Part shown: positions 18,735-60,115 of the stretch, in pieces | Layout: each line of letters opens with the position of its first letter | Numbering within the stretch: the stretch's first letter is position 1 | Assembly: GCA_902626435.1 (NCBI GenBank) | Contig: CACOFO010000003.1 | Coordinates: 1-62,025, forward strand | Direction: 5' to 3' | Length of the DNA: 62,025 nt | Source of the DNA: an uncultured Prochlorococcus sp. | GTDB lineage: Bacteria; Cyanobacteriota; Cyanobacteriia; PCC-6307; Cyanobiaceae | Program-made: the position numbers and the translations under genes | Notes under the pieces: model-generated | Seen by the model: only the letters and a program-made list of their open reading frames with translations | Told to the model about the DNA's origin: nothing | Database searches by the model: none

Positions 18735-19265
18735 TTAAAACTTTCTAACTAAGTATAGTTTATTCGATGAATTTTAGGCTTGAGACATCTTTCCATAGAA
18801 AAAACCGAATCAAGCATTAAATTGACCAGCTAAGACAAAAAATTGAAATTTCAAGCTTAGATTTATTTTTCTTTACTTTAATTTTCAAATTGATACACCA
18901 TTAAGAAAAAAATTTTTTTAAATTTTTTTCAACATAAGCTTTTGAAGTAGATATTTTTTTTTATTTTAAAAGTAGTGATCCCACAGTTATCACAAGTGCT
19001 TCTGAGACTTTTTAAACTATAATTTTTTTTTTTTGATGAAGTATTAATACTTAAAAATTATTCAAGAAAAGCTTGTTTTGATAATGCTCCCCAAGAGTTA
19101 TCCACTTTTTAAGCGTTTTTCAACAGGGTTTTCCACAATATGTTGATTAAATTCGATTCTCTATGTGCAAAATGAAATATTATTTGTTTATTGGGAAAAA
19201 GTATCCACAATTTCGATTAGGAATAAGTATATTCAAATTGTTTTGACTTAATTAAGTTTAATTTT

Positions 19266-24459: not shown

Positions 24460-24571
24460 ATTTGGCAATTATCTAGAAGTGCCCTTGATATCAAGTCATT
24501 TAATGTGAATAATTTTTTTTACTTAAGAATTTAATATTCATAATTTCACATTTTTTAGATAGAAATTAAAA

Positions 24572-24601
24572 GGAATGAATTTCAAATAGAAGATTCATTC
24601 C
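24572..24601 (-). terminator. Rho-independent terminator of MIDSPPE unit B
   Basis: GGAATGAAT/ATTCATTCC stem then TTTT on the minus strand. Confidence 0.7.
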
Positions 24602-24627
24602 AGATTTAGCATTAGTTTTATTTAGAT

Positions 24628-24669
24628 TTAAATTTTATAATCTAACTCCTCTGGTGGACTGTCAATCAT
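24628..24669 (-). CDS. micro-ORF MIDSPPEELDYKI (13 aa)
   Basis: Strong SD GGAGGG; synonymous-only divergence from MIDSPPE of the 58827 micro-ORF. Confidence 0.6.
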   Translation of the reverse strand: MIDSPPEELDYKI

Positions 24670-24751
24670 TAGATCCCTCCGATTCAATAAGTTAAACGTA
24701 GGACTTACTTATAAAGAAAGTAAATCAGTAAAAATGCTGATTTATTATTTT

Positions 24752-24853
24752 CTAAAATGTTTGAATTAAAGAAGCTAATTCTGGTGCATCTAATAAAAGT
24801 GCAAAAAATGTAAGCACTACTAATAGAAATATGGAAAAGTAAAATTGAATCAT
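24752..24853 (-). CDS. single-TM micro-protein (33 aa, MIQFYFSIFLLVVLTFFALLLDAPELASLIQTF)
   Basis: Manual translation. Confidence 0.6.
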   Translation of the reverse strand: MIQFYFSIFLLVVLTFFALLLDAPELASLIQTF

Positions 24854-28094: not shown

Positions 28095-28277
28095 ATTTGA
28101 TAGGTTAAACCGGATCCCCGTCAGTTCTCTGCTGCATCGACCTGGAAATGCCAGAAGAGGATTCAAAGTGGGCTTTCGTTTCCGATTACAAGATCGGTTT
28201 ACTACCGCATCACGACAGTCTCCTCATGTCGAAAGAGAGTCAGATCAGAGCACATAAAGAAGAACTTAACCAAAGAT
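28095..28277 (-). ncRNA. ssrS: probable 6S RNA
   Basis: GC-rich structured intergenic sequence next to purK, closing stem GGTTAA/TTAACC; 6S-purK linkage is known in cyanobacteria. Minus strand favoured by terminator-like GCCTTTTAAAACAGGCTTTT; strand not certain. Confidence 0.62.
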
Positions 28278-28304
28278 CCAGTAATCTAACTCTAACTTAT
28301 TTTT

Positions 28305-52879: not shown

Positions 52880-52961
52880 AAAACGTTCAACTTGCGTATA
52901 GCAAGCCGCAAATCGACTTAAGCCATGGAACGGGGACTTAAGCGAAACCGGAGCTTAAAAA
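52880..52961 (+). promoter_or_regulatory. probable glutamine riboswitch of the downstream-peptide type
   Basis: CGTTC...GAACG closing stem, CTTGC-GTATA-GCAAG hairpin, short ORF immediately downstream. Confidence 0.65.
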
Positions 52962-58483: not shown

Positions 58484-58666
58484 ATGCTTACTACAAAAAT
58501 AACTTTTGCCTTGGCAGATTGGATTAGAGAGTGGCGTAAGTGCCGGGATAAGAATCCTTCTATTGATGAGTGTTTCAAATTTGTTCAGTGGAAATTGGAT
58601 GATTATAAACTTTCTGATAGTGATAAAAGAGTTATAGAATCTATTTTGCTTTATGAATCAGAATAA
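58484..58666 (+). CDS. small hypothetical protein (MLTTKITFALADWIREWRKC...)
   Basis: ORF track (track start 58475); ATG at 58484 preferred. Confidence 0.6.
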   Translation: MLTTKITFALADWIREWRKCRDKNPSIDECFKFVQWKLDDYKLSDSDKRVIESILLYESE

Positions 58667-58826
58667 GAGGGTATTAAGACTTAAATTTTTATATTTATCT
58701 ACAAAAAACAAAAGATCATTAAAATTCTCTTACAGATTAAGAAAAAAGTAAATCAGCATATTTACGGATTTACTGAAAATATAAAAAGAAGTAATTTATA
58801 AATGTTGAGTTCGGAGGCAATCTAAA

Positions 58827-58853
58827 ATGATTGATAGTCCGCCTGAAATTTAG
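58827..58853 (+). CDS. micro-ORF MIDSPPEI (8 aa)
   Basis: SD GGAGG; shares leader and peptide with the 24628-24669 micro-ORF. Confidence 0.55.
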   Translation: MIDSPPEI

Positions 58854-59105
58854 CAAATTCCAAAATATAGGAAGCGTATTCCTGAGAATGGGATTATTCG
58901 AGAATTAATGTCTAATCAATTAGTCTGATAAGACTTCGCTTTATAATTACTAGCGACAATAGGGACTAAAATGATCGAGAGAAATCCCCTAATTCACGTA
59001 TTCTAGGTTTATGAGTAAATAGACTTTAAAATATGTAAATTTATATCCTGTAAGAAGGAAATGAGATATCTAAAAAGGACTGTACAAACAGTCCTTTTTT
59101 TTTTG
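58854..59105 (+). ncRNA. candidate structured RNA following the micro-ORF, ending in a strong terminator
   Basis: Several local hairpins (TTCC..GGAA, CGCT..AGCG) and possible GGGATT/AATCCC long-range pairing; no ORF. Confidence 0.45.
59072..59104 (+). terminator. Rho-independent terminator
   Basis: GGACTGTACAAACAGTCC then a T run. Confidence 0.9.
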
Positions 59106-59173
59106 CAATCATTTCTAAAATGTACTTATTTTTGGATAATATAGACCTATAAATTGATTAAAAATATTTCAAA

Positions 59174-60115
59174 ATGAAAGATCAAGTCTTGTTTCCTGAA
59201 ATTAAAGTAAGGGAAAAGGGTTTTTTAAAAGTTAGTGAAATTCATACTATTTATTGGGAAAGATCTGGAAATCCAAATGGTAAAAAAATACTTGTTATTC
59301 ATGGAGGCCCAGGAGGAGGAAGTCAACCAAGATATAGAAGATACTTTGATCCAGATAAATTCGATATTATTCAATTTGACCAAAGAGGTTGCGGTTCTTC
59401 AACTCCTTTCTCCGAATTAAAAGAAAATACAACTTATCATTTGGTTGATGATATTGAGAAATTAAGGCTGCTATTAAAAATAGATAGTTGGCATTTGTTT
59501 GGTGGATCTTGGGGCTCTACACTTTCACTTATATATGCAATTAAAAATCCCTCAAGAGTTATTAGCTTAACTTTGCGAGGAATATTTTTATGTAGAAAGT
59601 TTGAATTGTTATGGTTTTATCAATATGGTGCGAGTGAAATATTCCCTAGTGAATTTGAAGAATATATTTCTGTAATCCCAAAAGAAGAAAGGAATGATTT
59701 GATAAGTTCTTTTTATAAATATCTAACATCTTCAGATGCGAATCTTAGATCAAAAGCAGCAGCAGCTTGGACAAAATGGGAACTCTCAACTAGTCATTTA
59801 ATAAATAAAAAATTCGATTTTGATAAGTCTCAAGTTAATTCTTTTTCAGATGCCTTTGCAAGAATTGAATGTCATTATTTTATTAATAATATTTTTTTAG
59901 AAGATGATTTTATTTTAAAAAATATAAAAATCATAGAAATGATACCAACAAAAATAATACAAGGTAGATATGACATAGTATGCCCTGTGAGAAGTGCCTG
60001 GGATCTGAATAAAAAATTAAAGAATTCTGAATTGATTATTGTTGATGATGCTGGACATTCAATGAGTGAAAAAGGTATAACAATTAAATTAATTGAGGCT
60101 CTAAAACATCTTTAG
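59174..60115 (+). CDS. pip: proline iminopeptidase
   Basis: HGGPGGGSQPRYRRYFDP, FDQRGCGSSTP, GGSWGSTLSL. Confidence 0.95.
   Translation: MKDQVLFPEIKVREKGFLKVSEIHTIYWERSGNPNGKKILVIHGGPGGGSQPRYRRYFDPDKFDIIQFDQRGCGSSTPFSELKENTTYHLVDDIEKLRLLLKIDSWHLFGGSWGSTLSLIYAIKNPSRVISLTLRGIFLCRKFELLWFYQYGASEIFPSEFEEYISVIPKEERNDLISSFYKYLTSSDANLRSKAAAAWTKWELSTSHLINKKFDFDKSQVNSFSDAFARIECHYFINNIFLEDDFILKNIKIIEMIPTKIIQGRYDIVCPVRSAWDLNKKLKNSELIIVDDAGHSMSEKGITIKLIEALKHL

Follow-up and report, generated by a model that had tools for sequence, protein, structure and literature searches.

The two MIDSPPE micro-ORFs in the window, by which we mean the whole 62,025-nucleotide stretch of Prochlorococcus DNA analysed here, lie at the 5′ ends of stand-alone small RNAs, each behind the same promoter element. 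For the plus-strand copy (copy A) this RNA is the known Yfr8, which faces its antisense partner Yfr9. The same micro-ORF joins Yfr8 to Yfr11 and Yfr16 and to two unreported loci, that of the minus-strand copy (copy B) and a third, locus C. None of the papers searched contains MIDSPPE. We are close to certain about the identity and anatomy of these RNAs. As for what they do, the explanation that we find best, and to which we would give an even chance of being right, is that they are redox-linked small RNAs in which a ribosome is loaded on the micro-ORF at the 5′ end. A sequence-only reading had presented the unit as a conserved hairpin leader plus a short peptide; this is supported in part, since the micro-ORF is real and recurrent, but it belongs to known RNAs and stands behind a promoter element that they share.

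Copy A of the micro-ORF is ATGATTGATAGTCCGCCTGAA at 58827-58847 (+) and copy B is ATGATTGACAGTCCACCAGAG at 24669-24649 (-). Both are exact MIDSPPE frames with GGAGG upstream, as described earlier from the sequence, and all four differences between them over the seven codons are indeed synonymous third positions. They were the sole matches in the window to the degenerate motif ATGATHGAYWSNCCNCCNGAR with at most 2 mismatches, for which shuffled sequences gave a mean expectation of 0.02. The remainder of the incomplete genome contained two matches only, each with 2 mismatches. Both copies show the full order of the unit: the element, about 28 nt, the RNA start (placed from MED4), about 21 nt, GGAGG-N6-9-ATG, MIDSPPE-like codons 1-7 and a terminator of their own. 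The features are as follows.

58750..58776 (+): conserved promoter element of Yfr8 (the earlier "hairpin"), also the Yfr9 3′ end; exact match to the shared element
58797..58803 (+): -10-like box TATAAAT of Yfr8, directly 5′ of the MED4 start site
58804..59099 (+): Yfr8 RNA, probable extent, from the site homologous to the MED4 5′-RACE end as far as the terminator
58813..58817 (+): Shine-Dalgarno GGAGG of copy A, intact in all alleles
58827..58853 (+): micro-ORF copy A, MIDSPPEI plus TAG, from the motif search
59072..59099 (+): intrinsic terminator of Yfr8, the sole terminator-like site in 58600-59200
58740..59030 (-): Yfr9, antisense RNA to Yfr8; RF02360 match plus MED4 coordinates, probable extent after MED4
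24717..24743 (-): conserved promoter element of copy B, pattern match
24676..24680 (-): Shine-Dalgarno GGAGG of copy B, from the sequence
24628..24669 (-): micro-ORF copy B, MIDSPPEELDYKI plus TAA, from the motif search
24567..24688 (-): predicted copy B RNA, about 120 nt; start by homology, end at a hairpin plus T-rich tail
24572..24601 (-): putative terminator hairpin of copy B, GGAATGAAT...ATTCATTCC then TTTTAATTT; under the GC threshold of the terminator scan

Other features of the window include a 33-aa hydrophobic ORF (MIQFYFSIFLLVVLTFFALLLDAPELASLIQTF) at 24752-24853 (-), immediately upstream of copy B, which varies among relatives in the manner of a coding sequence (heterozygosity 0.032, 0.000 and 0.113 by codon position). 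Further known RNAs are Yfr17 at 18982-19245 (-), 6S RNA at 28103-28287 (-) and a glutamine-II riboswitch at 52881-52942 (+).

The assignment of copy A rests on an Rfam RF02360 (Yfr8/9) match at 58804-59030 (-), which scored 246 bits against a gathering threshold of 40 and covered positions 1-226 of the 226 in the model. In MED4 the same model matches 339952-340177, in agreement with the published coordinates of Yfr8 (339952..340241) and Yfr9 (complement(339887..340176); PMC2518516). The Rfam model therefore represents the Yfr9 strand, and the strand of the micro-ORF is that of Yfr8. From the 5′-RACE and Northern data of MED4, copy A would give two overlapping convergent transcripts, and the length of Yfr9 places its 3′ end on the copy A element. 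Past the copy A TAG there are 24 further open codons in frame (58854-58925, +), conserved in relatives. We considered readthrough of the TAG (QIPKYRKRIPENG... in the open frame); the TAG is fixed, and some relatives have TAG-TAA, a second stop that makes readthrough unlikely.

The link to the other RNAs comes from MED4, where the motif ATGs lie at 339974 (+), 358733 (-) and 657508 (-). The reported 5′-RACE ends are 339952 for Yfr8, 358754 for Yfr11 and 657529 for Yfr16 (PMC2518516), so that the RNAs start 22, 21 and 21 nt before the ATG, respectively. Rfam separates Yfr8 (RF02360) from Yfr11/Yfr16 (RF02363). The 2008 paper noted the 74% likeness of Yfr11 and Yfr16, and its passages on the pair neither tie them to Yfr8 nor mention an ORF (PMC2518516). 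The RF02363 model had no match in the window and none at the HLII copy B locus L065, and no Rfam family matched copy B or locus C. The frame of locus C reads MIDSLPEISE, or MIDSLPAISE in the MED4-like group. A tandem arrangement occurs at L191, where two Yfr11-type cassettes (positions 770 and 1175) lie 405 bp apart, each with its stop shifted up to give a 9-codon ORF.

The family is limited to one Prochlorococcus genus. Motif plus Shine-Dalgarno was found in all six genomes sampled from the genus and was absent from 145 genomes of 58 other genera of the family, and family B (the copy B locus and its relatives) had a long strong match in most of 61 sampled genus genomes. A check for phage origin found no phage match; two viral contigs that matched the motif encode a longer, apparently unrelated protein that starts MIDSPPEFQVTC by chance.

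The upstream element lies outside the leader: the distance from element to ATG is 77 nt in copy A and 74 nt in copy B, and by homology to the MED4 5′-RACE ends the "hairpin" sits 27-28 nt upstream of the transcription start, leaving the micro-ORF RNAs a true 5′ UTR of only about 19-23 nt. The element pattern AAATCAGCATNNNTACNSATWTACNNA, with at most 2 mismatches, had six matches in MED4, and the backward-read control had 0. Four of the six end 27-28 nt 5′ of the independently mapped starts of Yfr8, Yfr11, Yfr16 and Yfr19, and the element is therefore best read as an activator-type promoter element. In the diverse Yfr11/16 family this block hardly varies; behind it, at -33 to -28 from the ATG and some 7-12 nt ahead of the start, comes a -10-like TANNNT, an arrangement typical of activator-dependent promoters. 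In the 2008 paper Yfr11, Yfr16 and Yfr19 stand out as the three RNAs that go down in light and up with DCMU (PMC2518516). The element, centred near -41, is most likely an activator site tied to photosynthetic redox state.

The element also occurs without the micro-ORF, at Yfr19, at MED4 locus 1347611 with its Yfr11-like upstream region, and at L319, L321 and L322, so the micro-ORF is just one of several modules that a common promoter serves. The MED4 locus (1347611, +; L431) has the element and a terminator and is an unlisted sRNA candidate of about 80 nt. Behind the common element at L319, L321 and L322 there is a second recurrent RNA module, GATCNATGATTTAGG(TGCGTT), in a variable stem; it is in tandem twice in L319 and L322 and is present in locus C too (L066, L312). 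In several genomes a variant of the element stands 5′ of a small ORF, of 60 aa in MED4 (L432, MED4 1326697, -; L434, from genome G041); this may be a protein-coding regulon member or merely a terminator hairpin.

With a common ribosome-binding site and a tiny frame behind one promoter element, the RNAs are probably read by ribosomes, and this would include Yfr8, Yfr11 and Yfr16, catalogued in 2008 as non-coding. Established, here or in the literature, are the MED4 transcripts with their starts, the 5′ ends and upstream element held in common, the conserved Shine-Dalgarno, ATG and codons 1-7, and the terminator ahead of the next gene. We infer translation, ribosome pausing, the regulator and the role of the remaining RNA, and word the mechanism conditionally. 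A promoter with the conserved element near -41, an activator site linked to redox state, would start a transcript about 21 nt 5′ of the ATG with its strong Shine-Dalgarno. A ribosome would initiate there and translate an ORF of 8-13 codons, of which the first seven (MIDSPPE, including a Pro-Pro pair) hardly change and the remainder is free. Loaded, and perhaps held, at the 5′ end, the ribosome would set the stability or accessibility of the RNA, and the remainder, closed by its own terminator, would act as an sRNA. The family comprises Yfr8, Yfr11/Yfr16 and loci B and C, all stand-alone small RNAs with the unit at the 5′ end.

To see which level selection acts on, we used 182 loci gathered by flanking DNA similarity or an Rfam model rather than by the motif (61 in family A, 40 in B, 40 in C and 41 in D, the Yfr11/16 family). 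The sequence-only reading had named many copies with synonymous bias as support; the Shine-Dalgarno plus micro-ORF unit is indeed recurrent and conserved, with many copies in related genomes. GGAGG and ATG were intact in all alleles examined, with a spacing of 6-9, and codons 1-7 contained no indels. Frame-breaking variants in these codons, which would have spoken against the peptide, were looked for in the 182 loci and were not found. As amino acids, Met1, Ile2 and Pro6 were never altered and the other residues of codons 1-7 occasionally (Leu replaces Pro5 in family C, and Ser does so once in family A). By contrast, the sequence, length and stop position of codons 8-13 all drift. Some changes seen in single genomes may stem from errors in amplifying or sequencing single-cell genomes.

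The earlier claim of selection on the peptide holds only in part. Between the four family consensuses, six of the seven minimal changes are synonymous third positions (p = 0.0008), a test that carries an ascertainment bias, since it was the motif that first led to family C. Within families, the parsimony steps in codons 2-7 number 6, 3 and 13 by codon position (third-position excess p = 0.012), but only 7 of these 22 are synonymous and 15 nonsynonymous (p = 0.23 for a synonymous excess, the expected share being 0.23). Family D alone has 8 of 12 steps at third positions (p = 0.019) and 6 of 12 synonymous (p = 0.037), and for all data pooled 19 of 29 changes fall at third positions (p = 0.0004). 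Third positions themselves are conserved: their heterozygosity in codons 2-7 of family B is 0.008 versus 0.113 in the neighbouring 33-aa ORF, measured on a slightly different set of loci. In family C every codon position is conserved between deep clades, the sole deep difference being Glu to Ala. The segment is therefore under strong nucleotide-level constraint and weaker codon-phased constraint, and the evidence for the peptide as the target of selection is only moderate.

These numbers bear directly on a reading that takes the peptide for the product: a family of micropeptides, 8-13 aa long, whose N-terminal MIDSPPE is conserved by selection on the amino acids. The third-position counts between families, in family D and in the pooled data favour it, as does the fact that 13 codons is the commonest ORF length in both family B and the Yfr11/16 family. 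The within-family share of nonsynonymous changes near the neutral expectation, the drift of codons 8-13 and the stop, the conservation of family C at all codon positions and the bias of the between-family test all count against it, and we consider it rather unlikely. No support was found for a secreted or signalling role. Nor is a leader peptide for a downstream gene supported, since each unit is on a stand-alone sRNA with its own terminator: that of Yfr8 (59072-59099) precedes the next gene, which begins at 59174, and Yfr11 and Yfr16 are only 149 and 138 nt long (PMC2518516).

The nucleotide-level conservation, third positions included, could instead mean that the Shine-Dalgarno/ATG segment is an RNA pairing site, either an sRNA seed for targets or a site bound in trans by Yfr9-like antisense RNA, with the frame incidental. 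Yfr9 is the perfect complement of Yfr8 over this segment, and for copy B, Yfr11 and Yfr16 the pairing predicted with Yfr9 is stronger than for shuffled sequences (1-2 of 200 as strong), as expected from the shared sequence. However, GGAGG-N6-9-ATG is perfectly retained while the spacer sequence varies, which is the mark of ribosome binding, the changes between families are in codon phase, and the analysis yielded no target RNA; pairing seems improbable to us as the main explanation. Folding gave no common structure over the Shine-Dalgarno/ORF region of the families (z versus shuffles -1.16, 0.80, -0.15, -0.21, 0.31 and -2.76), which speaks against conservation for secondary structure. Finally, the 2008 authors proposed that Yfr8/Yfr9 form a type I toxin-antitoxin pair, which would suit cis-antisense RNAs of unequal decay (19.7 and 6.9 min) with Yfr9 up early in phage infection (PMC2518516). 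Such a pair calls for a small hydrophobic toxin under antisense control, and we find it very hard to credit here: MIDSPPEI is very short and polar, the minus-strand ORF of Yfr9 (40 aa in MED4) is not kept in the window (at most 28 aa), and families B, C and Yfr11/16 have no known antisense partner.

Ribosome loading at the extreme 5′ end is the simplest reading. Pro-Pro-Glu is a known EF-P-dependent pause context, and the Shine-Dalgarno, the ATG and mostly Pro-Pro-Glu are retained while the peptide tail is variable. It is possible, though we put it somewhat below even, that the ORF serves chiefly to bring a ribosome onto the 5′ end and perhaps to keep it there. Against a median of 2.6 min in MED4, Yfr16 (half-life above 20 min) and Yfr8 (19.7 min) belong to the most durable RNAs, as one would expect if a paused ribosome shielded them. 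Yfr11, at 4.8 min, does not fit stabilisation in general. Also against a loading site are conservation of nucleotides, third positions included, beyond strict need, the Leu or Ser at Pro5, and the partial predicted pairing of the Shine-Dalgarno in Yfr8.

In Prochlorococcus, protein regulators are few and small RNAs without an assigned function are many. Rfam families Yfr8, Yfr11 and Yfr19 are here linked through one promoter element, with a redox response that is partly shared. We tentatively suggest, with rather more doubt than confidence, a redox-controlled regulon of dispersed sRNAs with one promoter element and interchangeable 5′ modules, in which the MIDSPPE module would set RNA lifetime or yield micropeptides of 8-13 aa. 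Orphan RNAs would in this way become a testable regulon, and ribosomes may read some "non-coding" RNAs.

Compared with known systems, the unit shows the following likenesses. Ribosome-stalling short ORFs stabilise or attenuate mRNAs; MIDSPPE RNAs share with them a strong Shine-Dalgarno, a very short ORF near the 5′ end and a Pro-Pro motif, but have no downstream gene on the transcript, and pausing is putative here. Yfr19 (RF02366) has the common element 27 nt before its start and responds to light and DCMU like Yfr11 and Yfr16, but its 5′ end lacks the Shine-Dalgarno and MIDSPPE module. The dual-function sRNAs SgrS/SgrT and RNAIII have ORFs of 26-43 codons, with peptide and base pairing both shown. 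They (also cited in PMC2518516) resemble the MIDSPPE RNAs in carrying a short ORF in a regulatory RNA, and the ORF with Shine-Dalgarno inside a small RNA that defines such sRNAs is found here; the MIDSPPE ORFs, however, have 8-13 codons, and both peptide and base pairing are putative. Yfr11/Yfr16 (RF02363) share with Yfr8 the Shine-Dalgarno, ATG and MIDSPPE 21 nt past the 5′ end, the upstream element and the stand-alone RNA, whereas the sequence 3′ of the ORF is unrelated and neither Rfam nor, in its passages on these RNAs, PMC2518516 joins them. Copy A is the same locus as Yfr8/Yfr9 of MED4 (RF02360; Steglich et al. 2008, PMC2518516), with the RNA start, antisense partner and terminator position alike; that paper's passages on Yfr8 call it non-coding and point instead to a 44-aa frame in Yfr9, with no mention of the micro-ORF that Yfr8 carries.
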